This document shows positions 11,707 to 62,719 of a stretch of DNA of 64,000 nt, in pieces (the first letter of the stretch is position 1; each line of letters starts with the position of its first letter). Origin of the DNA: Candidatus Cloacimonadota bacterium (GTDB lineage Bacteria; Muiribacteriota; UBA6191); assembly GCA_019454875.1 (NCBI GenBank), contig JACFNL010000005.1, forward strand, positions 1 to 64,000. Reading direction: 5' to 3'. The translations under genes and the position numbers were made by a program. The notes below the pieces were generated by a model. That model made no database searches, was not told the DNA's origin, and was given only the letters and a program-made list of their open reading frames with translations.

Positions 11707-13296
11707 CTACTCTTTACTTTGAAATCCCATCAGGTGATTTGGGTTTATGGGGCGAAGGTGATTGAGAGATTCCGGGTTTGCACAGGGAGGGGGGAGGGAA
11801 GAACATCGAGGAGCATTATTGTGTAGCCAGGGGGAATTGACTTTAAAAGAATTCCACAGATAATCCCTGAGGTCTGATGGTTCAAGAAAGTCCAGAGCCT
11901 TGTTTGGAACAAGCCACGGTAGGCTGTTGATTTTGGGGTTCTGAATACGAAACAGATTTTCATGCAGGGGCGGGAAATTCCAGAACATAAAAACAGTTAA
12001 AATGAGCAGGGCTATTGAGGTTTTGTATGTCAGGATTGATGAGTTTATGTTGATTCTCAATTGCAGAGCTATCAGGAAGGGGGCCATAAACCAGATTGCT
12101 CCGTATCGGAGGGCTGGAGCGGTTAAAAGCATAAATACAACCATAACAAGCGAGCAAAACAGTGCCTGTAGATCCTTCGATTCCATTCTACGATAGGGCA
12201 GTACTACAATACCTAGAATTAAAAGACCTGTGGGTATTTGATTGTATTCACAAAAAAACCAGTCTGGAATCCAGCTCAATGCGGGAGCAGAATCAATTGG
12301 TATCTTGTCACACCAGATCACAATCTCACGGATATGCATTTGCATGGCATAAGCCCCGCTGCTTTTGACTCCCCAATCAGCGCAAAACCAGGGCAGGGGA
12401 TACAGAGGACACCCACTGCTTAGGAAAGTGGAATAAACTGCTGGAATCAGAAGAATTACAATCCAAAACAAAAAGACAGGGTTTTTGAGCCTGTGATTGA
12501 AGATGTACCAGAAGGTAAATAATAAAAACACTGGAAGCAGGGTGACACGAATACATATAGACAGGGCCAGAAGAACTAGAATCACTTTTTCCTGAATCTG
12601 TCTTTGATTATTGGGATAGATCCAGAGGGAGATGCATAAAAGCCCGATCCATTGAGCAAAAGGGTCGGGACTTAAGGATGCAAAGATATTGTGAGTCATG
12701 CCAAGGATTGTGAGGATTAAAAATGCCCCCATCCCAAGAATTCTGTGAGGCAGGCGGCACACAGAATAGAGAAACAATCCCAGGGTCAAAGCTCCACCAG
12801 CAGTACCAAGTCGATCTGAAAATATACCTGTGTCAAAAGGAGCAAACAGGGCAAACCATCCAGCTGAATGAGAGTAGGTGGGATCAATCAATCCAATTCC
12901 CTGAACAATCCCATAACTGGAAATCCACTTAAGCAAAGGATAGTGGTAGTAGTGTGTATCAGACCAGCTTAGCGGCAATAGGGTAACAATCGAAGAGGCG
13001 ATTGAGGCAATACAAAGCCAGGGCAGTTCAGATTGGGTTTTATACCACCACTGTTTCAGAAGTCCTGATTTTAGGCAGTATACAAACAATGCCAGATATA
13101 ACAGTGTTCCGATTAAAGGTGTAACGGCTGTAAAACAGGCAATGAATAATAAAAGGCTGCATGTGCTGACGATTCCAAGAGTGATTTGAAAAGGCTGGTT
13201 CATAGCCCCAAAACAAAGGTCTTTAGGATAAAGAATATAACCAACCAGGGAGTTTAGACAAAATAGTACAAAAGACAGGGCTGATATGAGGATCAT
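11707..13296 (-). CDS. Large polytopic membrane protein, LIC_10190-like (copy 1)
   Basis: This 529-residue protein has about 12 hydrophobic helices and a short soluble tail. It shares with the next gene the loop WSDTHYYHYPLLKWISSYG, the segment SHSAGWFALFAPFD and the Cys-containing block SGCPLYPLPWFC, so the two are paralogues. The conserved Asp-His loop after an early helix is what a GT-C-type lipid-sugar transferase would use, but no experimental function is known to me. It is the first gene of the operon. The start ATG is at 13296-13294, and the divergent sanA begins 41 bases away, so the AT-rich spacer holds promoters for both. Confidence 0.6.
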   Translation of the reverse strand: MILISALSFVLFCLNSLVGYILYPKDLCFGAMNQPFQITLGIVSTCSLLLFIACFTAVTPLIGTLLYLALFVYCLKSGLLKQWWYKTQSELPWLCIASIASSIVTLLPLSWSDTHYYHYPLLKWISSYGIVQGIGLIDPTYSHSAGWFALFAPFDTGIFSDRLGTAGGALTLGLFLYSVCRLPHRILGMGAFLILTILGMTHNIFASLSPDPFAQWIGLLCISLWIYPNNQRQIQEKVILVLLALSICIRVTLLPVFLLFTFWYIFNHRLKNPVFLFWIVILLIPAVYSTFLSSGCPLYPLPWFCADWGVKSSGAYAMQMHIREIVIWCDKIPIDSAPALSWIPDWFFCEYNQIPTGLLILGIVVLPYRRMESKDLQALFCSLVMVVFMLLTAPALRYGAIWFMAPFLIALQLRININSSILTYKTSIALLILTVFMFWNFPPLHENLFRIQNPKINSLPWLVPNKALDFLEPSDLRDYLWNSFKVNSPWLHNNAPRCSSLPPPCANPESLNHLRPINPNHLMGFQSKE

Positions 13297-13337: not shown

Positions 13338-14000
13338 ATGGCTCAAAAATTTATTGTAAGCGCTTTGTTAATTGTGGTTGGACTTTTGTCTCTGCTTCCT
13401 CTGTTTTTTGTTTTATATAGTAAAAACATAGTACTTCCAAACGACTCTCCTAAGAGCAAAGTTGCCCTGGTATTGGGGGCTAGTGTTAAATCGGATGGGA
13501 CTCTGAGCGGTGTTTTGAGGGACAGGGCAGACACTGCATTGGAACTTTATGAATCCGGTAAGATAGAAAAAGTCCTGATTAGCGGGGACAATCGAAGTCA
13601 TGACTACAATGAGGTCGTGCCTGTGAAACATTACCTGATTGGCCGTGGAGTTCCTGCCCAGGATATTTACCTGGATTATGCAGGGTTTGATACATATTCC
13701 AGTGTGTACCGGGCCAAGGAGGTTTTTTCTGTGTCTGAGGTATTGATTGTTACTCAGAAATTCCACTTGCCAAGAGCCCTGTTTTTAGCCCAGGCCCTGA
13801 GCTTGAATGCAGTCGGGGTCAAGGCTGACCGCAATCACTATCCCCGTATCTGGTATTTTTATGCACGGGAGATACCAGCTTTTTTTAAAGCTTTGTTTGA
13901 GGTAGTGATTGGGGCCAAACCAAGGCATCTTGGTGAAAAAGTGGATCTTTTTGGGGAACCTCAACCCTTTGGACTAAAGAACATCCCGGAAAAATCGTAA
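13338..14000 (+). CDS. sanA: SanA/YdcF family (DUF218) membrane-anchored protein
   Basis: This 220-residue protein has one N-terminal membrane anchor (about residues 5-27) and a DUF218 domain. Motifs are VALVLGASVKSDGTLSGVLRDRADTAL (about 42-68), LISGDN (about 81-86), YLDYAGFDTYSSVYRAK and VTQKFHLPRALFLA. This fits the SanA branch, where the DxxxFDT.S and QxFHLPRA motifs are typical. E. coli SanA affects envelope permeability to vancomycin at high temperature, and the biochemical reaction is unknown. There is no clear SD. The last 27 bases overlap the convergent dienelactone-hydrolase-like gene. Confidence 0.8.
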   Translation: MAQKFIVSALLIVVGLLSLLPLFFVLYSKNIVLPNDSPKSKVALVLGASVKSDGTLSGVLRDRADTALELYESGKIEKVLISGDNRSHDYNEVVPVKHYLIGRGVPAQDIYLDYAGFDTYSSVYRAKEVFSVSEVLIVTQKFHLPRALFLAQALSLNAVGVKADRNHYPRIWYFYAREIPAFFKALFEVVIGAKPRHLGEKVDLFGEPQPFGLKNIPEKS

Positions 14001-14808: not shown

Positions 14809-15750
14809 ATGCATAAATGCCAGGATGATAGAATTTTTGAATCTGCAAAAAGTACAGCAGAGTGGCTTAGCTCTTCAGAAGCCAAGACCATGTTAAACAG
14901 GGATCCCTATTGGCCTAAGTGGCATTCACCCTGGTGGAGAATGCATCTTTTGATGGAAATGGATATGATAGATCTGGTTCCCAGGGATTTTACCAACCAG
15001 TTTCTTGAAGTATTTAATCGGCATTACCTGCATTTTTTCCCCCTGCGTATTGAAGAAGTACCACCTTCTGTAGATCCGGTTATGCAGATTGTTTGTCAGT
15101 GTGCCCTTGGATCGGCCATAAAAATGTTTACTCTTAGTCTGAAGCCGGATCGCCCTGTAATTCACTGGTTTTCTGACTGGTGCAGACAATATCAGATGGA
15201 AGATGGGGGTTATAACTGTGATGAGGCGGCCTATACCAGAGATTTCCCAAAATCTTCCTTAATTTCTACCCTGCCTATGCTGGAGGCTATGTTACTGGAG
15301 TGTAAACTTTTTGGGGTTAAGGAACATTTGCCTTTGCTTGAAAAAGGGGCTCAATATTATTTAAGGCGGGGGCTGGTAGGCTCTAGTCGTTCCCCGTCTG
15401 TTTCTGTAGACCCATCCTGGGATGTGCCAGTTTTTCCCAGATTTTATGAATTTGACGGACAGAGGGTATTAAAATTTCTTAAAGACTATGCAGAATTTGT
15501 GGGAATAGCTTTACCCGTGGAAGCTCAAAACTACCACAGGACTCTTGAGACCAATATCTATGGAATGGCGCGGGAATCCAGGCCGTTTCGCACTGTATTT
15601 GACTCACAGTTCTCAAGGGTTCTGGATTCCAGTGGGGAATTTGTTAAAGGAAAATCCGAATCATTTCCTCTTTTGGATATGTTTTTGGATTTTTCCGTAG
15701 TGTGGCCCTGGCTGGAACGAGAATTTTTATCCGGCAATAAACAGCCATAA
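14809..15750 (+). CDS. Unknown protein, alpha/alpha-toroid-like (terpene cyclase or prenyltransferase fold)
   Basis: The protein has 313 residues with no signal or membrane segment. The segment HWFSDWCRQYQMEDGGYNCD (about 118-138) resembles the QxxDGG(W/Y) repeat of squalene-hopene cyclase/prenyltransferase alpha-barrel proteins, and the helical, Trp-rich composition is compatible. The catalytic DxDD of class II cyclases is not seen, so enzymatic cyclase activity is doubtful. A -10-like TAGAAT lies six bases before the ATG. The last 24 bases overlap the convergent transporter gene. Family and function are unrecognised; the fold is an inference from one motif. Confidence 0.5.
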   Translation: MHKCQDDRIFESAKSTAEWLSSSEAKTMLNRDPYWPKWHSPWWRMHLLMEMDMIDLVPRDFTNQFLEVFNRHYLHFFPLRIEEVPPSVDPVMQIVCQCALGSAIKMFTLSLKPDRPVIHWFSDWCRQYQMEDGGYNCDEAAYTRDFPKSSLISTLPMLEAMLLECKLFGVKEHLPLLEKGAQYYLRRGLVGSSRSPSVSVDPSWDVPVFPRFYEFDGQRVLKFLKDYAEFVGIALPVEAQNYHRTLETNIYGMARESRPFRTVFDSQFSRVLDSSGEFVKGKSESFPLLDMFLDFSVVWPWLEREFLSGNKQP

Positions 15751-50245: not shown

Positions 50246-51321
50246 AAGCAATTCTGACATTTATAGCATTTTTGTCTTTAGGTTATTGTGAATCAGGCTA
50301 TCTTTCTGTTGTGGAAATGGATGCTGAACAGCAAAATGCCGCCAATCTTAAAACCAGAAGACTTCGTAAACAGATTGTTCGTAAAGAAGCTATCTGGCCA
50401 GGAAAGATACGCAATTCTTCCCAGAACCTTGTCGAAATCGCAGCTCCAACGGAGGGGGTATTGTATCCATCAGATCATGTAAGGGGGCAGAGTATCGACA
50501 AGGGCATGGAGCTAGCACTTCTGGATCCGGCAATCGTTGAAGAATATCACGATATTGAATCCGAATTGACGGAAGCAATCATTATGGCAAAACGGGAAAG
50601 TGAGGAAGTAGACAGGCTGAAGTCTCTTAGTCGGGATGGGTCTGTTTCCAAAAAAGATATTCAGGATACATTGGCTAGACAGAAGGTGCTTAATAAAAAG
50701 GTGGAAATTTTAGAGGAGCATCTGGATTGGCTCTCAGCAGGGGGTCAGTTGATACAAACAGCCCCAATTCGTATTGTATCCGCAAAGCAGGGAATTCTGG
50801 AATTTGTGCCTCAGGCCAGACAAAAATGGGTTCTGAGGGGTGAGCTTCTTTACAGTATACGAAGTCCCGGGGCTTTTGAAGTGGCGATTGATCTTTATCC
50901 ATCCATTTACAACCATGTAGGAAACATAGACAGGCTAAGTCTAAACGGCCTGGATCTGACAAGCCTGCGAGTGGAGTCAGGCACACCACCACAGCTGGTT
51001 GCCAATTTACAGTCAAAGGAATCAGGACTTGTTTCTGGTGCATCAGTGTCTGTGAAAGCCCTCATGCGCGAACCCAAACCCCTGTTATGCTTAAATTCCC
51101 AGGAACTGATTCGGGAAGGGTCCGATGGTCTGGTTTTTTTAGATATTGGTGAGGGACATTTTGGTTTGAGGAAGGTTGTGCTTGGTCTGGAAACCAGTGA
51201 GTGTATTGAGGTTTCAGAAGGTGTTGAGTCAGGTGATTTTATAGTTTCTGAGGGAGTCTGGCAGCTTTATTTACTGGCCAGAGGAACCCAGGGAGGAGAT
51301 CATAGTGGACATTCTCACTAA
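50242..51321 (+). CDS. RND efflux periplasmic adaptor, CusB/CzcB type (system 1)
   Basis: The protein has 359 residues from the ATG at 50242 (ATGA with the TolC-like stop). It has a signal peptide, a lipoyl/barrel-sandwich hybrid region (VEIAAPTEGVLYPSDHVRGQSIDKGMELALLDP) split by a helical hairpin (about 95-160), then beta-barrel and membrane-proximal domains. The C-terminus ends GGDHSGHSH, a small His cluster. It bridges the RND pump and the outer-membrane channel and delivers metal to the pump. The next gene begins 17 bases before its stop. Confidence 0.85.
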   Translation: MKAILTFIAFLSLGYCESGYLSVVEMDAEQQNAANLKTRRLRKQIVRKEAIWPGKIRNSSQNLVEIAAPTEGVLYPSDHVRGQSIDKGMELALLDPAIVEEYHDIESELTEAIIMAKRESEEVDRLKSLSRDGSVSKKDIQDTLARQKVLNKKVEILEEHLDWLSAGGQLIQTAPIRIVSAKQGILEFVPQARQKWVLRGELLYSIRSPGAFEVAIDLYPSIYNHVGNIDRLSLNGLDLTSLRVESGTPPQLVANLQSKESGLVSGASVSVKALMREPKPLLCLNSQELIREGSDGLVFLDIGEGHFGLRKVVLGLETSECIEVSEGVESGDFIVSEGVWQLYLLARGTQGGDHSGHSH

Positions 51322-54300
51322 ACTTGGTATTCGCTACTGGGGGGTAATGATTTTTATTGCTCTGGCACTATTGGGTCCCGGCCTGTTTATGGTGCAAAAA
51401 ATGCCCGTGGATGTATTGCCTGAGCTTAGTTCTCCTTCCGTTACGATTTTAACTGAAGCTCATCAGATGGGCCCCGAAGCTGTAGAATTACAAATCAGCC
51501 TGCCACTTGAAACAGCTTTGCAGGGATTGTCCCACCTTCGGCGATTGCGTTCTGCCAGTGGGGTAGGGCTATCCATGGTTGTGGCTGAGTTTGATTGGCA
51601 AATCAGTGAAAAGGAAGCTCGCCTTCAGGTAATGGAGAGGCTGCAAACCGTGGCTGCTTCCTTGCCAGAAGGGATAGATGCCCCCTTGATGACCCCACCT
51701 AGCTCCATTATGGGTGAGATAATTTTTCTGGGGATTACTGATAATCAAGGCCAGGATCTTGTGCGGGCCAGACAGTTTGCAGATACAGTTTTGCGCCCGA
51801 GGCTTCTGGCCGTATCCGGGGTATCTCAGATTACAGTTCTTGGTTCTGGGGATCGAGCCATTCAAATCGAACTGTTGCCTAACATGCTGCAACACTATCA
51901 GATTAAGGCCCAAGAGATCATAGAAAAGGTACAGGAAGCAGATGGATCGGCAACGGCCGGATATATGACTCAGGGGGCACAGGCTTTTCTGGTGCGGTCC
52001 CTTGGTCGCAGCACAACAGTAAAACATTTTGAAAATCTTGGGATTGGGGAAGGCTTGAAGCTTAAGGATGTGGCCAGGGTGACCTATTCACAGACCCGCC
52101 CAATTGGCCTCGGTTCCGTAGCTACCAAGCCGGCGATAATTTTAGCCATTGGTCGGCAACCTCAGGCCAATACTATCGAGGTTTCCGAGGCTGTGGATAA
52201 ATCTCTTAAGTTGCTTCAGATGCCCGAGGGGCTGGAGTTAAATACAAATCTGTTTCGGCAGGAGCACTTTATTCGAGCAGCCTTAAACAGTTTAAAAAGT
52301 GCCCTGGCTGAAGGTTCATTCCTGGTAGTGCTGATTGTAATTCTTGGTCTTCAGTCTTTGCGTTCTTCACTGATTTGTCTATTGGCCCTACCCTTGTCTT
52401 TAGTAATGGCCCTTCTGATTCTGAGTTTTTTTGGTGTGTCCATCAATACAATGACTTTAGGGGGACTCACCATTGCTATTGGGGCCCTGGTGGATGATGC
52501 CATTGTATTTGTGGAAAATACTGTCCGTCGCCTGAATGAAGGTGGGACAGGTCAGGATCGAGGTGAGCTTATTGCAAAATCCTTATCCCAGGTTGCTTCT
52601 TCCATCATTTATGCCACAGCCATCATTGTAGTGGTATTTCTTCCCCTGTTTTTTCTATCGGGAATTGAGGGAAAACTGTTTCAACCATTGGGGTTATCCT
52701 ATGTAACAGCCCTGGTAGCTTCTTTGTTTGTTGCACTGTTTCTGACCCCGGCATTTATATACTGTATGGGACTAAGGGAAAAATCACACTCGACCCCTAT
52801 AGCGGCAAGACTTGCTCAAAGAGTTTATGATCCGGTCTTGAAGTTCACCATGAAATATCCGGTACCCATTCTTGTGGCCGGACTATTGTTATCCCTTGGT
52901 TCCGTGTTTTATGTGTCCAACTTAGGGACAAGTTTTTTACCACCCTTTCGTGAGGGATCCTTGACCATCGAGATGAGTACCATTCCGGGGACCTCACTTC
53001 AAGAGTCAGATCGCCTCGGTCGTATGGCGGAGTCAGTGCTTTTAGGGCTGGATGGAGTTTTACAGGTTGCCAGACGCAGTGGGCGGGCCAGTAATGATGC
53101 TCACGCAGTGGATGAAACCATGACAGAGATAGAGGTGGTTCTTGATCTTAACAACCAGAATCGGGACTCCATTCTTGAGTCAATCCGCAACAGCCTGAAG
53201 TCAGTATCGGGAGTGGTGTTTAACATTGGTCAGCCCATTTCTCATAGAATCGATCATATCCTCTCAGGGGCCAGAGCAATGCTTGTTGTTGCAGTATTTG
53301 GGGAAGACCTGATTCGTCTGGATGCATTTGCCAACAGGGTTAAAGCCACCTTGGAGGACTTGCCTAGTCTGGTGGATGTGGCTCTTGAGTCTCAGGGTGA
53401 ACAGCCGGAACTAAGAATTGTTCCTCACCTGTCCCGCCTGGCGGACTATGGGCTTAGTCCACATGATATGGCTGAACATACTGAGCTATTGTTTGATGGG
53501 ATTCGCGTAGCCCAGATCCTACAGGGAAATCTGAAAATACCTGTAATTGTCCGTTATGAAGAGGGTGGAAGACAAACAGAGGATCTCAAAAATTTTCCAA
53601 TTGTGACAGAAAGGGGGTCTACCACTCTCTCAGAACTAGCTGATGTCAGCTGGCACAGGGGACCAAATCGGATAGGGAGAGAAGATCGTTCCCGCCGGAT
53701 TCTGGTTATGGCAAACATTGCCGGCATGGATTTGGGCTCAGCTTCAGAAATGGTGGAAGCAGCTTTGATGAAGCTAACAGCGGAACCCGGGATTCACTGG
53801 CAGCTTCGTGGACAGTTTGAGGCCAGAAAAATTGCTGCCCAAAGAATGTTTTTTGCCTCGTTTCTCAGTCTGTTTATAGTGGGCTGGATTTTGCATGTTT
53901 CCCTGGGGTCATTACGCCTTGCCTTATTGACCATGTTAAGCCTGCCTCTCAGTTTGGCTGGCGGAGCTTTTGGGGTGTATTACTCAGGTGGCATAGTATC
54001 CCTGGCCTCCTTGGTTGGTTTTTTAACCCTTTTGGGCATTGCTGCCCGTAACGGGATTTTACTTCTGGAGCGATTTCGTGATGGAGTGACCTCAGGCATG
54101 AGCCATTACGATGCGGTTTGGGAAGGTACCAGAGAACGGTTGCTTCCCGTATTTATGACGGCTATCAGCACAGCTCTTGGTTTATTGCCTCTAGTGCTTG
54201 CCATGGACAAACCTGGAAATGAGATTCAGGCTCCGATGGCTGCGGTAATTCTTGGTGGCCTAATTTCATCGACTGTTTTATCAGTAATTGTAGTTCCAGC

Positions 54301-54337
54301 CCTCTGGCTGGTGTTTCACAAAGGAGAAACAAAATGA
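51305..54337 (+). CDS. Heavy-metal RND efflux permease, CusA-like (system 1)
   Basis: This 1,010-residue proton-driven exporter starts at GTG (51305) with SD GGGAGGAG, inside the adaptor gene. It has 12 membrane helices and two large periplasmic loops. KMPVDVLPELSSPSVTILTEAHQMGP opens the porter domain; in helix 4 the motif is IAIGALVDDAIVFVEN. By Nies's sub-grouping, the AIGxxVDxA form is the Cu(I)/Ag(I) (HME4) type, with VDDA rather than VDAA. That points to monovalent metal, by inference. A YHS-like His-rich protein is coupled by ATGA at its end. Confidence 0.88.
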   Translation: MDILTKLGIRYWGVMIFIALALLGPGLFMVQKMPVDVLPELSSPSVTILTEAHQMGPEAVELQISLPLETALQGLSHLRRLRSASGVGLSMVVAEFDWQISEKEARLQVMERLQTVAASLPEGIDAPLMTPPSSIMGEIIFLGITDNQGQDLVRARQFADTVLRPRLLAVSGVSQITVLGSGDRAIQIELLPNMLQHYQIKAQEIIEKVQEADGSATAGYMTQGAQAFLVRSLGRSTTVKHFENLGIGEGLKLKDVARVTYSQTRPIGLGSVATKPAIILAIGRQPQANTIEVSEAVDKSLKLLQMPEGLELNTNLFRQEHFIRAALNSLKSALAEGSFLVVLIVILGLQSLRSSLICLLALPLSLVMALLILSFFGVSINTMTLGGLTIAIGALVDDAIVFVENTVRRLNEGGTGQDRGELIAKSLSQVASSIIYATAIIVVVFLPLFFLSGIEGKLFQPLGLSYVTALVASLFVALFLTPAFIYCMGLREKSHSTPIAARLAQRVYDPVLKFTMKYPVPILVAGLLLSLGSVFYVSNLGTSFLPPFREGSLTIEMSTIPGTSLQESDRLGRMAESVLLGLDGVLQVARRSGRASNDAHAVDETMTEIEVVLDLNNQNRDSILESIRNSLKSVSGVVFNIGQPISHRIDHILSGARAMLVVAVFGEDLIRLDAFANRVKATLEDLPSLVDVALESQGEQPELRIVPHLSRLADYGLSPHDMAEHTELLFDGIRVAQILQGNLKIPVIVRYEEGGRQTEDLKNFPIVTERGSTTLSELADVSWHRGPNRIGREDRSRRILVMANIAGMDLGSASEMVEAALMKLTAEPGIHWQLRGQFEARKIAAQRMFFASFLSLFIVGWILHVSLGSLRLALLTMLSLPLSLAGGAFGVYYSGGIVSLASLVGFLTLLGIAARNGILLLERFRDGVTSGMSHYDAVWEGTRERLLPVFMTAISTALGLLPLVLAMDKPGNEIQAPMAAVILGGLISSTVLSVIVVPALWLVFHKGETK

Positions 54338-55272: not shown

Positions 55273-55332
55273 GCTCCTTTTTACACATTATTCAGAATTT
55301 ATCCCTGATTTGTTTTTAAAAGGAGCTTGCTT

Positions 55333-55650
55333 ATGTCTAAAAATGTTGTTTCCATAATTGTCATTGTTTTTGTGGGCCTGTTGGCCTGGTTTTTACCTCA
55401 ATCAGAAGCTAAGGCTTCTCCCCAAACTCCCTGTGCAGTTCATCAGACGGTTAACTGCCCGTTTTGTCATCCTCAGCTCATCCAAACGATGGGTCTTTGT
55501 AAAGAGCACGATAATATTCCTGAAGCTCAATGTGTTTTATGTCGCCCAGAGCTAAAGCGGGCATATCAGCAGGAAAAAGATTGGTGTGCTGAGCATTCTG
55601 TGCCTGAGTCACAATGCACAACCTGTCTATTACATGGCCAAAACCACTGA
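55333..55650 (+). CDS. Periplasmic triple CxxH-CxxC repeat protein, putative metal-binding
   Basis: This 105-residue protein starts from the ATG at 55333 (strong SD AAGGAG). It has a signal/anchor helix (about 4-24), then three repeats of the pattern C-x-x-H-x(n)-C-x-x-C: CAVHQTVNCPFC, CKEHDNIPEAQCVLC and CAEHSVPESQCTTC. The CxEHxVPExQCxxC form is, to my recollection, an N-terminal module of some heavy-metal RND adaptors. Here it stands alone, just before an adaptor gene (55675) that lacks it. Likely a metal-capture protein that feeds that pump. Confidence 0.72.
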   Translation: MSKNVVSIIVIVFVGLLAWFLPQSEAKASPQTPCAVHQTVNCPFCHPQLIQTMGLCKEHDNIPEAQCVLCRPELKRAYQQEKDWCAEHSVPESQCTTCLLHGQNH

Positions 55651-55674: not shown

Positions 55675-56931
55675 ATGCGCCCGTTTACGACTACCATTAT
55701 TGCAGTGATTGTCTTTTTTTCAGTGCGTTCTATTCGGCAGAGCGATAAATCACAGGAAATGAGCCCAATCCATAAAACCGAAGAAGTTGCTACAAAGATC
55801 TCTGATCTAGTGGTAAAAAGTCAGTCGTCGCAACGATCTAAAAGGCCACCAAATCCTGATTGCAGCAGAGCAGATACAATGATTGATCTGGGCACTGATC
55901 AAATCTTGGATGATTCCAGGTTTTTGATAAAATCAGTGGATCAGGAACCAGTTGGGGAATTGATCATACGCAATGCGGATTTGGAGTTTTTGCCGGAAAA
56001 GTCTCAGGAAGTGACCGCAAAAGATGCCCTAACAGTGACAAATCTTTATGTCACCTCCGGTCAATGGGTGTCTGCCGGTGACTTACTTTTGGAGGCGGAA
56101 TGCAAAGAATTTGCAAAGGCTAGAATGGCCTGGCTTGAGGCTAAAGCAAAACATGAACTTTGGGAGGCCTCCAGAGAAAGAGAAAAGAGTTTACTTGGAG
56201 CCCAGCTTGGGAATTTAAGAGACTTTTCGGAAATCAGGGATCGGGAAATTGAGGCAAAATTGGCACTCAGTATTGCAGAACAACAGTTGGCCTGGTTTGG
56301 ATACACTTCTCAAGACTACGAAAAGTTTCTTAACATGAAAGCGTCAGATTTAAATTTAAAAATTTATGCGAAAATTTCAGGTATTGTTCAGCAGATTTCT
56401 CTGGTTCCGGGCTCTCATGTTGAAGAAGGTCAGCCTCTTTTAACCATAGTCGATCCAAATCGTCTGAGGGCGAGAATATGGGTCTCTCCTTCTGAAGCGG
56501 CTCATTTTAAGCTGGATCAGAATTTTACTGTGCATGCGAATGAAAGGATGTCCCAGGGACGGATCCGTTTTATTCCGGCCATGATTGATGCCCATACCAG
56601 ACAGATTCCGATATTGGGTGAGATCGACAATCAACCCTTACTGTTTCGAGCAGGGGAGTATGTTCAGGTTGAGCTGGAAAAACAATCCTCTACCTCATTA
56701 ATGGTTCCCGTAGAGGCGGTACAGTGGGATGGTTGTTGCAATCTGGTTTTTGAGTATTTAGGTCAAAATCGATTTCAACCTCGTAAAGTTGCTTTGGGAG
56801 ATAAAATCTCTGGCCGCCAGATAGTGCTTTCAGGATTACAGGCAACCAGTAAAATTGTGGCTAAAGGTAGCTATTTTTTAAAGTCAGTTTTAATGCAGGC
56901 TGAGATTGGTGATGCCTGCTGCGAGATTTAA
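55675..56931 (+). CDS. RND efflux periplasmic adaptor (system 2)
   Basis: This 418-residue protein has a signal/anchor (about 1-18), a long disordered linker (about 22-85), then a lipoyl/barrel-sandwich domain (VTNLYVTSGQWVSAGDLLLEAE, ~121-142), an alpha hairpin (145-215) and beta-barrel domains. The usual inter-lipoyl sequence YAKISGIVQQISLVPGSHVEEGQPLLTIVD is complete. The C-terminus, EIGDACCEI, has a CC pair, and there is another (GCCN), both unusual and compatible with thiophilic metals. No TolC partner is encoded nearby, so it may share the system 1 channel. Confidence 0.83.
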   Translation: MRPFTTTIIAVIVFFSVRSIRQSDKSQEMSPIHKTEEVATKISDLVVKSQSSQRSKRPPNPDCSRADTMIDLGTDQILDDSRFLIKSVDQEPVGELIIRNADLEFLPEKSQEVTAKDALTVTNLYVTSGQWVSAGDLLLEAECKEFAKARMAWLEAKAKHELWEASREREKSLLGAQLGNLRDFSEIRDREIEAKLALSIAEQQLAWFGYTSQDYEKFLNMKASDLNLKIYAKISGIVQQISLVPGSHVEEGQPLLTIVDPNRLRARIWVSPSEAAHFKLDQNFTVHANERMSQGRIRFIPAMIDAHTRQIPILGEIDNQPLLFRAGEYVQVELEKQSSTSLMVPVEAVQWDGCCNLVFEYLGQNRFQPRKVALGDKISGRQIVLSGLQATSKIVAKGSYFLKSVLMQAEIGDACCEI

Positions 56932-56979
56932 CAGTCATTCCGAACCTGGTTCTTGAACGGGTTGTTAGGCGGCTATCTT

Positions 56980-59900
56980 ATGTTTAAATTGATGCAAATT
57001 TCCTTAAAATACAAAGAAATTGTGATTGCATTGACCCTGATTTTGGTTGTAGCTGGGGCAAACATTATATTGCGATTACCTCTGGACGCCTTTCCAGATA
57101 CTACGCCAGTCATGGTACATGTCAACTCTGTGGCATCAGAGTTATCCCCAGTGGAAATTGAAGAACAGATTTTGCGCCCATTGGAGAGAGCTTTGATGAC
57201 AACTTCGGGGCTTACAGAAATTCGCACCTTAGGCAGATTTGGTTTTGGGCAGGTCATTTTGATTTTTCATGATTCTGTGTCACTTATGGATGCGAGACAG
57301 GCTGTAATGGAAAAGCTTGCGGGTCTTGAATTGGAGGAAGGCATAGCACCTCCCCAAATTGGGCCACCTGCTACGGGTATGGGAGAAGTCTTTCACTACA
57401 CTCTGAAGTCCGAAACTCTGAATTTAAAGGACCTGCTGGACCTACAGCAATATGTTTTGGAGCCAGAACTGGCATCAGTGCCTGGAGTTGCTGAAGTGAA
57501 TGCCTGGGGGGGTAAACTTCGTAGGATCGAGATTTTGGTGGACTTGTTAAAGATAGAGGAATATCAGATTACTTTAAGCGAAATTTTTATTGCAATTCGC
57601 GATCATGCTGGTGCTAGCGGTGGGGGGGGGATTGAGTTTTCTGGGGAGTATCATCTGGTTCAGGGAGATACAAGGTATAGAAAAATTGAGGATATTGAAA
57701 ATACTGTGATTCGCAGTCATCAGGGACTACCCGTACTATTAAAGGATATTGCCAATGTTGTAGACGGTCATAATCTGCGTCGTGGGGCTGTCTCTCAAAA
57801 TGGTAAGGGAGAGGTGCTTTTAGGTCTTGTATTTATGGGCTTTGGGGAAAATGGTCGTTCAGTAAGCATGGCCACAAAAAAGCGGCTTTTGGAGACAAAA
57901 GAGCTGCTACCGGCCTCTGTGGAAACAGAGATTATCTACTCACGACAAGACATTGTGGATTCTGTACTTGAAACAGCGGGGAAAAACCTGATTTGGGGTG
58001 CACTGCTGGTAGTTCTTATTCTGTTTCTATTTTTGAAGGACATCAGGGCTGGATTGATTGTCGCATTCAGTATTCCTTTTAGTCTGTTGTTTGCTGTTTG
58101 TGGCATGTGGGCCTTTGCAATACCAGGTACTCTAATGTCATTAGGGGCCATTGACTTTGGTCTGGTTGTCGATTCCAGTGTGATCCTGGTTGAAAATGTG
58201 AGTAGTCGGCTGCAAAAAGCGAAGACATATTATGAGAAGTCCAAGATTGTTTTATCGGCATGTCTTGAGATGAGGCAGGCTACCCTTTTTGGGGAGATGA
58301 TTTTAATTGTGGCCTATCTTCCCATTGTCTTTTTGAGTGGTTCAGAAGGAAAACTGTTCAGGCCCATGGCTTATGCCGTGATGCTCGCTCTTGCAGGCTC
58401 ATTTGTATGGTCGGTTTTTGTAGTTCCTGTTCTTTGTGCCATTTTTTTACAGAAAAACCAGATCAAACACAAACCGTTTCTTATGCGTTGTATGGAAATG
58501 ATTTTTGTGCGCATGTTATCCAGTGTATTGAGATTTCGGGGTGTTGTGCTTGGATTTGTCGCTTTATTGGGGTTGGCTGCATGCTATTTGGCATCTGGTT
58601 TAGGGGCTCGATTTCTACCAAAGCTTGAGGAACATTCGATTGTGCTAGCCACGGTACGGCTACCAGGAATCGCGCTAAATGAAGCCTTGCATCAGGCCGA
58701 AGATTTGGAAAAATTTCTGTTAGAGAGATTTCCTAAAGAAATTCTATCGGTAACTACTCGAATCGGTACGGCTGAATTGGCAACCGATCCTATGGGTCTG
58801 GAACAAGCAGATGTGTTTCTTAAACTTTTCCCGCCAGAAAAATGGGAGCGGGTACAAAATCAAACTCAATTGCAGAATTTGATAAGCATCGAGTTGCAGA
58901 GTTTTTTGGGGACTAAATTTGTAATGACTCAGCCAATTGAAATGAGAATGAACGAAATGGACGCAGGAATTCGCTCTGATTTGGGAATCATGATTTACGG
59001 GAATGATCTTGATCAACTGGCGCGAAGAGCTGAAGAGGTGGCTTCCTCTGTTGCTCTTCTACCTGGGGCTAAAGATGTGACTCCCGAAAAGATAACAGGA
59101 GGTCCCTATGTGATTGTTAGAGGAATCCCGGAAAAAATGGGCCGTTACGGGTTTACAGGAAAGGATATTTTAAATCTTGTAGAGTCTATTGGGGGGTATC
59201 AGGTCGGCAAAATGTTTGTTGATGAGAAGCGTTATCCCATTGCGGTTCGATTTGCAAACAAAGATCGCAATGATCCTGAAAAATTAAGCGATTTGATATT
59301 GGTAAACTCCAATGGAGTGCGAGTCAGATTATCCCAGATTGCTTCTATTTCTATGGAAGCAGGTCCCGTTTTGATTACAAGAGAAAAGGCTAGGCGCAGG
59401 GTTGTGGTTCAGGTCAACATAGCACATCAGGATTTAGTGGGCTTTGTAGAAGACACAAAAAAACATCTGGATCAAAATTATGTCTGGAACCAGGAGATAC
59501 ACTATAAACTTGGGGGTCAGTACCAACATTATTTGAGTGCCCGCGTCTCAGTGCTTATAAGTATTTTGTTTGTTCTGGTATTGATTTTTTTCCTGTTGCA
59601 ACTCTCTACGGAAAGAATTTCTGATTCCACCGCAATTATGACTGGAGCACCCTTTGCGGCGATTGGAGGGGTCTTTGCCTTGTATTGGTTTGAGATTCCA
59701 TTCTCTGTCTCGGCAGGAATTGGTTTTGTAATTGTTTGTGGTGTCTCCATGCTGAATGGTTTGGTGTTGGTGAGTACAGTGAATCAGCGCAGGAAAAAAA
59801 ATCTGCGTGCCAGCATTATTTTGGCCTCAAGAGAAAGACTCCGACCAGTTCTAATGACAGCAATGGTAGCTTTTTTTGGATTTATTCCCATGGTGTTCAG

Positions 59901-60051
59901 TACAGGAATTGGTGCAGAGATTCAAAGACCTCTAGCTTTGGTTGTAGTAGGGGGGGTATTTTCAGACACTTTGCTGACTCTTTTTGTGTTGCCCTGCCTG
60001 CTTTTATTGCGGAAAACAATAGGCCCACACCCGACGATCACAAAGCCGTGA
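56980..60051 (+). CDS. Heavy-metal RND efflux permease, CzcA-like (system 2)
   Basis: The protein has 1,023 residues from the ATG at 56980 (SD-like AGGCGG), preferred over a TTG nine codons upstream. It has 12 membrane helices and the RND porter layout. RLPLDAFPDTTPVMVHVNS is close to the CzcA/CusA N-terminus. Helix 4 reads SLGAIDFGLVVDSSVILVEN, the DFGxxVDxxxxxVEN form typical of divalent-metal exporters (HME1-3, such as CzcA), unlike system 1. Substrate (Zn, Co, Cd, Ni) is therefore inferred to differ from the first pump. It is the last gene before a 180-base gap. Confidence 0.88.
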   Translation: MFKLMQISLKYKEIVIALTLILVVAGANIILRLPLDAFPDTTPVMVHVNSVASELSPVEIEEQILRPLERALMTTSGLTEIRTLGRFGFGQVILIFHDSVSLMDARQAVMEKLAGLELEEGIAPPQIGPPATGMGEVFHYTLKSETLNLKDLLDLQQYVLEPELASVPGVAEVNAWGGKLRRIEILVDLLKIEEYQITLSEIFIAIRDHAGASGGGGIEFSGEYHLVQGDTRYRKIEDIENTVIRSHQGLPVLLKDIANVVDGHNLRRGAVSQNGKGEVLLGLVFMGFGENGRSVSMATKKRLLETKELLPASVETEIIYSRQDIVDSVLETAGKNLIWGALLVVLILFLFLKDIRAGLIVAFSIPFSLLFAVCGMWAFAIPGTLMSLGAIDFGLVVDSSVILVENVSSRLQKAKTYYEKSKIVLSACLEMRQATLFGEMILIVAYLPIVFLSGSEGKLFRPMAYAVMLALAGSFVWSVFVVPVLCAIFLQKNQIKHKPFLMRCMEMIFVRMLSSVLRFRGVVLGFVALLGLAACYLASGLGARFLPKLEEHSIVLATVRLPGIALNEALHQAEDLEKFLLERFPKEILSVTTRIGTAELATDPMGLEQADVFLKLFPPEKWERVQNQTQLQNLISIELQSFLGTKFVMTQPIEMRMNEMDAGIRSDLGIMIYGNDLDQLARRAEEVASSVALLPGAKDVTPEKITGGPYVIVRGIPEKMGRYGFTGKDILNLVESIGGYQVGKMFVDEKRYPIAVRFANKDRNDPEKLSDLILVNSNGVRVRLSQIASISMEAGPVLITREKARRRVVVQVNIAHQDLVGFVEDTKKHLDQNYVWNQEIHYKLGGQYQHYLSARVSVLISILFVLVLIFFLLQLSTERISDSTAIMTGAPFAAIGGVFALYWFEIPFSVSAGIGFVIVCGVSMLNGLVLVSTVNQRRKKNLRASIILASRERLRPVLMTAMVAFFGFIPMVFSTGIGAEIQRPLALVVVGGVFSDTLLTLFVLPCLLLLRKTIGPHPTITKP

Positions 60052-60231
60052 ACCACAGATTTTGTCTATTGTGCAGAATTTACCCAATGGTGCCATTGTG
60101 ATATATTCTGAGAGGTTGATGGTTCCCCCCATCCTTGTAAACATACCACTACAAGACCACAGCAGTTGACATCATGGTGATAGTCACAGGAAATGAGTAG
60201 AGTCCCATAAGGGACAGACTCATTGATAATT
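60052..60231. other. Gap between pump 2 and the DUF3147 gene, with two small inverted repeats
   Basis: CAATGG-TG-CCATTG (60085-60098) forms perfect 6-bp arms just upstream of an AT-rich GATATATT stretch, possibly a promoter or operator. GTCCC-ATAA-GGGAC (60202-60215) forms a tight hairpin near the DUF3147 start. No gene is seen. Confidence 0.35.
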
Positions 60232-60591
60232 ATGAAATGGATGATTACAAAATATTTACTGACTGCTGCTGTTGTTGTCGTAGTTTCTGAGGTTGCCAAG
60301 CGCAATGATAAGCTAGGGGCATTGCTGGTAGCCTTGCCTATGGTTACCATTCTGTCCATGATTTGGTTACATTTGGAGAATCAGCCCTTAGAGAAGATAG
60401 CAAATCATGCATGGTATACTTTCTGGTATGTGATCCCGACTTTGCCAATGTTTTTGATTTTCCCCGTGATTGTTCCCAGGATTGGATTTTGGTGGAGTTT
60501 GCTGGTAAGCATACTGATTACCATTGGCTTTTTCTGGATTTTTGCAGCATTTGTCAGGTTGTGGGGAATTGAGTTGAACCCTGCTGGATAA
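60232..60591 (+). CDS. DUF3147 family membrane protein
   Basis: This 119-residue protein has four hydrophobic segments, at about 5-20, 28-45, 60-83 and 88-110. KYLLTAAVVVVVSEVAKRNDKLGALLVALPMVTILSMIWL is the pattern of the DUF3147 group, often small membrane proteins in metal or stress loci. The ATG at 60232 is used; a TTG three codons upstream is an alternative. It abuts the copA promoter, whose operator starts at the gene's stop. Function unknown. Confidence 0.7.
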   Translation: MKWMITKYLLTAAVVVVVSEVAKRNDKLGALLVALPMVTILSMIWLHLENQPLEKIANHAWYTFWYVIPTLPMFLIFPVIVPRIGFWWSLLVSILITIGFFWIFAAFVRLWGIELNPAG

Positions 60592-60613
60592 TTATACCCC
60601 CTGTGGGTATAAT
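60591..60613 (+). promoter_or_regulatory. CsoR-like copper operator overlapping the copA -10
   Basis: ATTATACCC (60591-60599) and GGGTATAAT (60605-60613) are perfect 9-bp inverted arms with a five-base CCTGT centre. The C/G-tract flanked by TA matches the pattern bound by CsoR/RcnR repressors. The right arm contains TATAAT (60608-60613), a perfect -10 exactly six bases before the ATG at 60620. So a bound repressor would occlude the polymerase. The first base of the operator is the last base of the upstream stop codon. No csoR gene is in this window. Confidence 0.75.
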
Positions 60614-60619
60614 GGCCCT

Positions 60620-62719
60620 ATGCAAATTCAGATAGAAGGGATGAGTTGTACAGCTTGTGCAAACCGGATTGAAAAGGTTTTACATAAAAATGGGGTCAGA
60701 GGGCAGGTAAATTTTGCCTCCCAAACGGCGGAAGTAGAGTCGGACAGCCTTGAAGTTCATGACATATTAAAGCTCATACAAAAGGCCGGATTCCAGGCCT
60801 CGATAGAGCAGAAAGCCCCAGCCAAGACATCTAATCTAAAACTTTTGGAAAAGGTTGGTCTTGGCGCAGGCTCCTTTGTGGCAATTGTGGATATGGGGGG
60901 CATGCTTTTTGGAGTCATGAATCCGGCTGGGGTTGCGACTTCAGCCATTCTTACAACAATCTGTCAGTTTACTGTTGGCCTGCCCTTTCTTAAGCGGGCC
61001 CTTGTTTCTTTAAAACATTTTAGTCCAGGGATGGATTTTCTGGTCAGCTTAGGTACCCTATCTGCCTGGAGTCTATCCATGGCGATCTGGCTTCATGTGA
61101 TTCATGCTCATCATGTCTGGTTTGAAGCCTCGGCTTCTGTTCTTGTACTGATTCGAGTGGGAAAAATTCTGGAGGAGAAAGCCAGAAATAAGGCTTCCAT
61201 GGCCATGCAGGAGTTAAGCCGAGAGTTGCCCAAAAATGCCAAAAAGGTGCAAAACGGGGAACTTATCGAGGTATCGGCTACTTCCCTAGTGGCTGGGGAT
61301 ACCATCCTTGTGCTGCAACATGAAAATGTACCAGTGGATGGAATCATCAAGGAAGGGGTTGCCGAGATTAACGAATCCCTGTTTACCGGTGAGAGTTTTT
61401 CTGTTCTTAAAGAGTCAGGTAGCCCGGTTCTGGCTGGAAGTTTAAATGTGGGTTCCCAATTTTTTGCTCAGGTGACTCAAACCCGTGGCAATTGTCGCTT
61501 TGATGCCATGCTCAAAGCGGTTGAGCGGGCCCAGAACAGCCGCGCTCCGATTCAGGATCTGGCAGATAAAGTTTCTAGCTGGTTTGTACCGCTTGTAGTT
61601 GTGATAGCCCTTTTGTCAGCGGTGACAGTTTTGTATTGGGGAGGCAACCTCGAAGAAGCACTGATTCGTATGATCACTGTTCTGGTGGTTTCCTGTCCCT
61701 GCGCCCTTGGGCTGGCGACCCCCACGGCAATTACAGCTGGAATTGGACGGGCTGCGGAACTGGGGATTTTGGTGCGTGAGGCCCGCTCATTGCAACTGGC
61801 TGAGAACCTGAAATTTTTTTGTCTGGATAAAACCGGAACCCTCACGGAAGGAAAACCAGTCGTAAAGAAGGTGCTTCATGCTCCGGAATTCACTTCAGAC
61901 CAGATCCTTTTACTGGCCTCATCACTGGAACAGTCAAGCACTCACCCTTTAGGCAAGGCAATTCTGGCAGCCAATACACAGAAAATCCCGATGGCCTCCG
62001 AGGTAGTTAATACTCCGGGCAAGGGTTTGAACGGAATTGTGAATGGGCAATTTGTGAGTTTAGGAAAGCCAGAATCCGTTTTTGGAGCTGGTTGGCCGTC
62101 CTGGGCTGGCCAATTTGACGATCATGTATCCCTAGTGGCATTGAGTGTGAATCAGGTTGCAGCCGGATTAATTCTGATTGCTGATCCTCTGAGGCAAGAT
62201 GCTGGGGTGGCGATATCTGCGCTGAAATCTCTTGGAATTGAACCAGTGCTTATTAGTGGGGACAGGCAAAAGGCAGTAGAAGAAGTTGCCCGTACTGCTG
62301 GTATCACGGCCTATTATTTTGCAGCCCAACCGGAAGAAAAGCTGCGTCTGATAAAAGAGTTTCAGAATCGGGGCACTACGGCCATGATTGGGGATGGAGT
62401 CAATGATTCTCTGGCTCTGGCCCAGGCCGATTTTTCCATATCCATGGGTGAAGGAAGTGCGGCGGCAAGAGAAAGTGCAGATTTAACCCTCACCCAAGAG
62501 GGGCTCATGCGAATCATTACCGCTATTCATTTATCACGGCAGATCATGCATACTATCCGTAGAAACCTATTTTTTGCTTTCTCATATAACCTGGTGGTAA
62601 TTCCAATGGCGGCCCTAGGTAAACTTCATCCAGGAATTGCTGGAGGTATGATGGCACTGTCTTCAATTTTGGTAGTAATGAGCTCAATTCAACTCAGAAG
62701 CTGGAAGGCCAGGGCATGA
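60620..62719 (+). CDS. copA: Cu(I)-translocating P1B-type ATPase CopA
   Basis: This 699-residue protein has one N-terminal heavy-metal-associated domain with GMSCTAC (7-13). The eight-helix P1B core carries the metal-transport motif CPCALGLATPTA (C359/C361), the TGES phosphatase loop (LFTGES), D403KTGTLTEGKP (phosphorylated Asp), the STHPLGKAI HP nucleotide motif and GDGVNDSLALAQAD hinge. CPC with a Cys-type HMA indicates Cu(I)/Ag(I) export from the cytoplasm. Metal-binding residues after CPC (YN in helix 7, FSYNLVVIP; and MxxSS-type MALSSI in helix 8) match the P1B-1 copper group. It is coupled to the next gene by ATGA. Confidence 0.93.
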   Translation: MQIQIEGMSCTACANRIEKVLHKNGVRGQVNFASQTAEVESDSLEVHDILKLIQKAGFQASIEQKAPAKTSNLKLLEKVGLGAGSFVAIVDMGGMLFGVMNPAGVATSAILTTICQFTVGLPFLKRALVSLKHFSPGMDFLVSLGTLSAWSLSMAIWLHVIHAHHVWFEASASVLVLIRVGKILEEKARNKASMAMQELSRELPKNAKKVQNGELIEVSATSLVAGDTILVLQHENVPVDGIIKEGVAEINESLFTGESFSVLKESGSPVLAGSLNVGSQFFAQVTQTRGNCRFDAMLKAVERAQNSRAPIQDLADKVSSWFVPLVVVIALLSAVTVLYWGGNLEEALIRMITVLVVSCPCALGLATPTAITAGIGRAAELGILVREARSLQLAENLKFFCLDKTGTLTEGKPVVKKVLHAPEFTSDQILLLASSLEQSSTHPLGKAILAANTQKIPMASEVVNTPGKGLNGIVNGQFVSLGKPESVFGAGWPSWAGQFDDHVSLVALSVNQVAAGLILIADPLRQDAGVAISALKSLGIEPVLISGDRQKAVEEVARTAGITAYYFAAQPEEKLRLIKEFQNRGTTAMIGDGVNDSLALAQADFSISMGEGSAAARESADLTLTQEGLMRIITAIHLSRQIMHTIRRNLFFAFSYNLVVIPMAALGKLHPGIAGGMMALSSILVVMSSIQLRSWKARA

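Follow-up and report, generated by a model that had tools for sequence, protein, structure and literature searches.

A predicted CsoR operator at the copA promoter of a little-studied bacterial lineage

CsoR is found particularly where CueR and CopY are absent (PMC7558416). Its type 2 operators are defined by a TAC/GTA inverted repeat over 9 bp, together with a pair of short G/C tracts and outer repeats rich in A and T, and the type 2 consensus in Streptomyces is ATATACCCCTNAGGGGTATAT (PMC3902906). In Bradyrhizobium liaoningense csoR-cueA, a CsoR box, TATACCCCTACCGGGTATA, overlaps the -10 element at a leaderless csoR start; the Cys-His-Cys ligand motif of CsoR is stated in the same source (PMC5057107). 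The first and fourth arginines of the RLXR motif matter for DNA binding by Streptomyces CsoR, and R54A weakened that binding (74 to ~2062 nM, with a poor fit; PMC3902906). Other bacteria, too, have leaderless genes (PMC12340547, PMC3160421).

We analysed a 64,000-nucleotide stretch of DNA (the window), the 3.83 Mb genome to which it belongs (the host genome, G000) and the genome of a sister species, bacterium UBP17_UBA6191 (G001); UBP17 is presumably a candidate phylum. A palindrome in the window lies on the promoter of a copA gene. In all likelihood it serves as operator for a CsoR repressor that responds to Cu(I) and would silence the copA promoter until the metal ion sets it free. Such an operator upstream of copA is a known kind of switch, here well supported in a little-studied lineage. 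Features are collected in Table 1.

Table 1. Coordinates of the features discussed (positions without a contig or locus prefix are those of the window)
Feature	Position	Strand	Basis or remark
Small-protein gene upstream of copA (PRK09272-type, NF006751)	60223..60591	+	ORF; NF006751 185 bits versus cut-off 154
-35-like hexamer TGGATA (4/6)	60585..60590	+	Promoter scan; 17 nt to -10
CsoR-type (type 2) operator, predicted	60591..60613	.	Sequence; published type 2 consensus; Bradyrhizobium CsoR box
-10 hexamer TATAAT in the operator's right arm	60608..60613	+	Sequence; promoter scan
copA, Cu(I) P-type ATPase, 699 aa	60620..62719	+	NCBIfam, Pfam, motifs
One-mismatch site, host genome, sole such	C13:23047-23065		Over start codon of outer-membrane channel gene
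Exact core, sister genome, sole such	C371:8136-8154		Last base is the A of the channel-gene ATG
One-mismatch site, sister genome	G001:C377:3468-3486 (L023)		Start of HMA / MerT-like cluster
csoR, sole PF02583 gene of the host genome	C175:5739-5975		E 6.1e-30; 105.5 bits versus cut-off 22.8 (105.9 in second search)
CsoR, protein P0001	L001 1483-1893	-	Asn replaces first RLXR Arg

The palindrome at the copA promoter

The first-pass annotation had described a perfect 9-5-9 inverted repeat with TATAAT in its right arm and the copA ATG six bases further on, and all three are exact; the repeat reads ATTATACCC-CCTGT-GGGTATAAT and the ATG begins at 60620. Its view that the repeat has the features of CsoR-family operators is borne out by the core, TATACCC-N5-GGGTATA (60593-60611), which is a published type 2 operator and a near-copy of the Bradyrhizobium CsoR box. 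The core contains the TAC-X9-GTA dyad, here TAC-CCCCTGTGG-GTA within TATA repeats, and has the same letters as the Streptomyces consensus at matching positions. Also in keeping with type 2, the palindrome overlaps the promoter of a copper gene.

Symmetry as such is not unusual, because perfect hairpins with 9-bp arms number two in the window, and 10 Markov simulations gave between 1 and 9 apiece; the signal is in the letters. The exact core has a single match in the host genome, where 0.0045 matches are expected by an order-1 Markov estimate and about 0.03 when scaled from 26 control matches at up to two mismatches. An 18-base pattern searched with up to three mismatches matched once in the window, versus a mean of 0.02 in shuffles. 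At up to two mismatches the core gave 17 sites in the genome versus 26 for the reversed control pattern: two-mismatch matches are background, and scaling from the same control gives about one one-mismatch match expected per genome. The window holds no second copy, as had been noted, since the only other core match at up to three mismatches, a three-mismatch match at 13839, is at chance level (1.47 expected). That bare 9-bp palindromes are equally common in simulations is what favours a functionless chance palindrome; such an origin is nonetheless extremely unlikely, given that in both species the exact CsoR letters are present just once in the genome and stand at a copper operon.

The -35-like and -10 hexamers upstream of copA pair with 10/12 matches, and shuffles of the region average 0.5 such promoters. 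The copA product was assigned by NCBIfam TIGR01511 (490 bits versus a cut-off of 397), by Pfam HMA and E1-E2 ATPase domains and by the motifs GMSCTAC, CPC, DKTGT, YN and MALSS, which we take to be signs of Cu(I) transport. Its ATG, six bases past the -10 hexamer, is the earliest ATG, GTG or TTG in frame and roughly coincides with the expected +1, so copA is probably leaderless. The stop codon of the small-protein gene upstream touches the first base of the palindrome; a Pfam search with that protein gave no match.

The survey of leaderless starts covered 425,941 bases of the host genome with 284 ORFs, a non-random sample in which the first ATG was taken as the start. Hexamers resembling -10 elements peak at -12 from the ATG, with 16 cases, whereas offsets from -50 to -26 average 2.4 each and internal ATGs give about 1.5 after scaling; a smaller second excess, of 10, stands at -17. 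Among the 16 ORFs of the peak a TGn-like extension is frequent, with T at -15 in 12 and G at -14 in 12. A -10-like hexamer at -15 to -11 was found in 34/284 ORFs, a Shine-Dalgarno-like motif in 58/284 and both in none, a zero that is partly forced because the same bases would have to serve both motifs. Leaderless mRNAs thus look common in this genome as judged from these signals, and the copA layout appears to be one of its ordinary promoter styles; the promoter scan found no TG extension at copA. The leaderless copA start proposed in the first-pass annotation fits the -10-like peak six bases before the ATG, the start itself being a prediction from sequence. The sample includes window positions 14809, 36422, 42962 and 44189 on the plus strand and at 13296 and 19452 on the minus strand.

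Two more CusA/CzcA-type RND pump gene sets lie near copA, at 51305-54337 and 55675-60051, and a small Cys-rich ORF at 55327-55650. The core scan of the window gave no CsoR-like site at either pump set, and another regulator may therefore control them.

Recurrence of the site and the copper regulon

Further TATACCC-N5-GGGTATA sites, which the first-pass annotation had named as a check on its reading, lie at copper-export operons in both species, with one mismatch in the host genome and exact in the sister. Beyond the window, the one-mismatch copy of the host genome stands at a copper-pump operon with the gene order outer-membrane channel, CusB (with an HMBD domain), CusA and DUF3347 protein. 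The sister genome was searched with the unchanged copA core, and the operon marked there is cusCBA-DUF3347 followed by copA. Identities between host and sister are 45% for the channel, 49% for CusB, 70% for CusA and 37% for the DUF3347 protein (over its cut-off in both); CopA is 70% identical over 497 residues, an alignment reaching near the contig end. In the sister, cusCBA and copA are thus in one operon; in the host genome they lie on separate contigs, and each part has its own site. Either a single operon may have been divided or two may have merged.

In the host genome, cusCBA-DUF3347 is flanked by genes for similar proteins (G000:C13, L018:987-2507 and L018:9305-9790), both of which begin MKKFFNTAG and may mark a rearrangement.

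The one-mismatch site of the sister genome stands at the start of a cluster whose lead gene encodes an unknown protein and which also encodes an HMA (MerP/CopZ-like) protein and a protein weakly resembling MerT. This lead gene has no match in the host genome; its start may be an ATG ahead of the site or the ATG at the site's end. Perhaps this cluster too is under the same CsoR.

All four sites fit the 16-base consensus TATACCCCC-NNN-RGGTATA, which matches 2/39 phylum genomes, at those four sites only, with 0/39 for the reversed control. The consensus was derived from the same four sites that it then found, and the clean tests therefore come from searching the sister genome and from the gene context. 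Counted from the A of the ATG, the site runs from -27 to -9 at copA, from -9 to +10 at the host cus operon and from -18 to +1 at the sister cus operon, and again from -18 to +1 at the HMA / MerT-like cluster if the second ATG is the start. The sequence is thus conserved while its register to the ATG shifts. The start codon is touched or covered at both cus sites and, provided that the second ATG is used, at the HMA / MerT-like cluster, which makes three sites out of four. The promoter scan placed pairs at copA, at the host cus site (9/12) and at the HMA / MerT-like cluster (10/12); at the sister cus site it found no promoter-like pair, and this site scored as terminator-like (0.3 expected).

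These comparisons bear on whether the repeat works as RNA, either as an attenuator or as a hairpin that ends the upstream gene. The 9-bp hairpin, of about -10 kcal/mol, the upstream stop codon abutting it and the terminator-like score at the sister cus site would all suit such a role. The terminator scan was negative at copA, however, and two of the three other sites break an inner pair yet keep the operator letters and spacing; position relative to the ATG also differs between sites. We rejected a hairpin or terminator function for want of a copA terminator and because of the broken inner pairs, and regard an RNA role as very unlikely.

CsoR was found in 10/36 phylum genomes. A scan at up to one mismatch covered the eight CsoR-bearing genomes other than host and sister, along with two genomes of the same family lacking CsoR; the eight have no site at a copper gene, and a single match was found elsewhere. 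Phylum-wide coupling of site and CsoR was rejected, as this lone one-mismatch match is not at a copper gene. The coupling is consequently shown for this genus only.

The CsoR protein and other candidate regulators

A csoR homologue with Cys-His-Cys metal ligands, on which the first-pass reading depended, is present in the host genome in a single copy. Its C40, H65 and C69 align ungapped to residues 36, 61 and 65 of 2hh7, which we take to be Mycobacterium tuberculosis CsoR and its Cu(I) ligands; these three residues, and a Tyr that precedes the first ligand Cys, are kept in the sister species. The gene is paired with copZ on a contig other than that of copA, and its probable ATG overlaps the end of the CopZ-like gene. 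Among solved structures the best match is CsoR 4m1p (E 6.1e-19), with InrS second and more CsoRs after it. Three NCBIfam models scored below cut-off (RicR 77.9/175, RcnR 49.4/138 and FrmR 44.4/133 bits); these are narrow models, and a general CsoR model is absent among the matches.

A protein of the CsoR/RcnR family might bind the site and sense a signal other than copper, such as nickel, sulfur species or formaldehyde. The family is mixed, the RicR, RcnR and FrmR models are all below cut-off and the second-best structure, InrS, is that of a nickel sensor. Against this stand the Cys-His-Cys set with its preceding Tyr, the CopZ-like partner gene and the nature of the targets, which are CopA and a Cus pump carrying an HMBD domain, and we consider a non-copper signal unlikely.

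The RLXR motif reads NLSR in both species, with Asn for the first Arg and the fourth Arg kept, and the Asn aligns with the position of R54A in Streptomyces CsoR. At this position seven other CsoR-family proteins (six of the phylum's eight others and that of locus L029) have Arg in six cases and Ala in one; five solved chains shown per residue have Arg in four and Ala in 7mq1, named as a copper-sensing CsoR. The first Arg is therefore not universal, and a genus that combines NLSR and a canonical operator offers a natural way to gauge its importance. The conserved Gln (DILHQ) is present. A scan of named contigs gave two loci, one in the sister genome (L028) and the other a CsoR of Bacterium D16-36.

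No core site at up to three mismatches lies upstream of copZ-csoR. Autoregulation of csoR through the core was rejected, as the only match near the pair, at L019:1789, has three mismatches, is put down to chance and does not lie at the gene.

The first-pass preference for CsoR over CueR or CopR agrees with the inventory of regulators, in which csoR is present and no CueR, CopY or CusR-type protein passes its cut-off. For CueR, the best TIGR02044 score is 30.6 versus 147.4 bits in each of the two genomes. PF03965 (CopY/BlaI) is absent from both (0/2; about 95% and 75% complete). For the CusR/CopR type, 0/2 genomes exceed the TIGR01387 cut-off of 279.2 bits, the best scores being 142.4 (G001) and 140.7 (G000). 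CueR requires a cysteine pair, and no CueR-like pair is present in the two MerR-type proteins of the host genome. CueR, CopY or CusR-type control of the copA site was accordingly rejected. That one of these other copper regulators (CueR, CopY or CopR/CusR) binds the palindrome nevertheless has two points in its favour: in many bacteria copA or cus is under one of these families (PMC7558416, PMC9470648), and each genome has one full-length OmpR-type response regulator (one of them on C149) at about half the CusR/CopR cut-off. Besides the failed cut-offs and the missing cysteine pair, the letters of the site, a CsoR motif and not the CopY box TACANNTGTA, make this highly improbable. A CsoR operator remains our reading, and the host genome fits the pattern of the review (PMC7558416), having CsoR and no CueR or CopY over cut-off.

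Proposed control and comparison with known systems

From the operator and promoter hexamers, the csoR gene with its ligands, the recurrence of the site at copper operons and the -10-to-ATG signal of the genome sample, all read in the sequence, we infer how CsoR binding, repression, release by copper and a leaderless start may combine. Without copper, CsoR made from copZ-csoR on another contig would occupy 60591-60613. It would cover the spacer and the -10 hexamer and end at most seven bases from the expected start site, and RNA polymerase would thereby be excluded. Cytosolic Cu(I) would fill the Cys-His-Cys site, CsoR would leave the DNA and copA would be read into a leaderless mRNA that begins at its ATG. 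Control of the cusCBA-DUF3347 operon by this CsoR, through the one-mismatch copy at that operon's start codon, is very probable. A broader proposal, which we make only tentatively, is that in this genus one cytosolic Cu(I) repressor, an NLSR-type CsoR, runs both CopA and CusCBA export, replacing periplasmic two-component control of cus.

The outcome is a small predicted copper regulon in a lineage for which the sister genome was assembled from a metagenome. A CsoR box is present on the cus and the copA part alike, be they joined in one operon or separate. Its novelties are minor: cusCBA under CsoR, the NLSR motif, the lineage and the sequence signs of common leaderless starts. We found no report of cusCBA under CsoR in passages of PMC10141476, PMC7558416 and PMC9470648, papers that mention both, which is weak evidence of absence. 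The first-pass annotation had also called a CsoR-type regulator unexpected by comparison with proteobacteria. That argument is weak, because the UBP17_UBA6191 sister does not establish a proteobacterial origin of the lineage, and Gram-negative examples of CsoR control have been published in Bradyrhizobium (PMC5057107) and Pseudomonas putida (PMC11978298).

The B. liaoningense csoR-cueA divergon (PMC5057107) resembles this locus in its 7-bp arms TATACCC/GGGTATA and 5-bp spacer, in a box placed over the -10 element at a leaderless start (there of csoR), in a copper ATPase as target and in its Gram-negative host, which we count as a likeness. It differs in that csoR there is divergent from cueA with a shared box, whereas the host genome has csoR on a contig apart from copA, with no site, and cusCBA as a second target. 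The copZA operators of Streptomyces lividans are likewise type 2 with the TAC-X9-GTA dyad, and its CsoR has the conserved Gln after the copper Cys (Q81 there); unlike here, its csoR carries an operator and its motif is RLXR, not NLSR (PMC3902906). In P. putida, CsoR also represses copper-resistance genes in a Gram-negative, but together with CueR and CopR and with cusA under CopR (PMC11978298), whereas neither type passes cut-off here. Cytosolic control of cus already has a precedent in P. aeruginosa: its cusBCA pump answers, as proposed here, to a copper sensor in the cytosol, but in that species the role falls to the activator CueR and not to a repressor of the CsoR type (PMC9470648).
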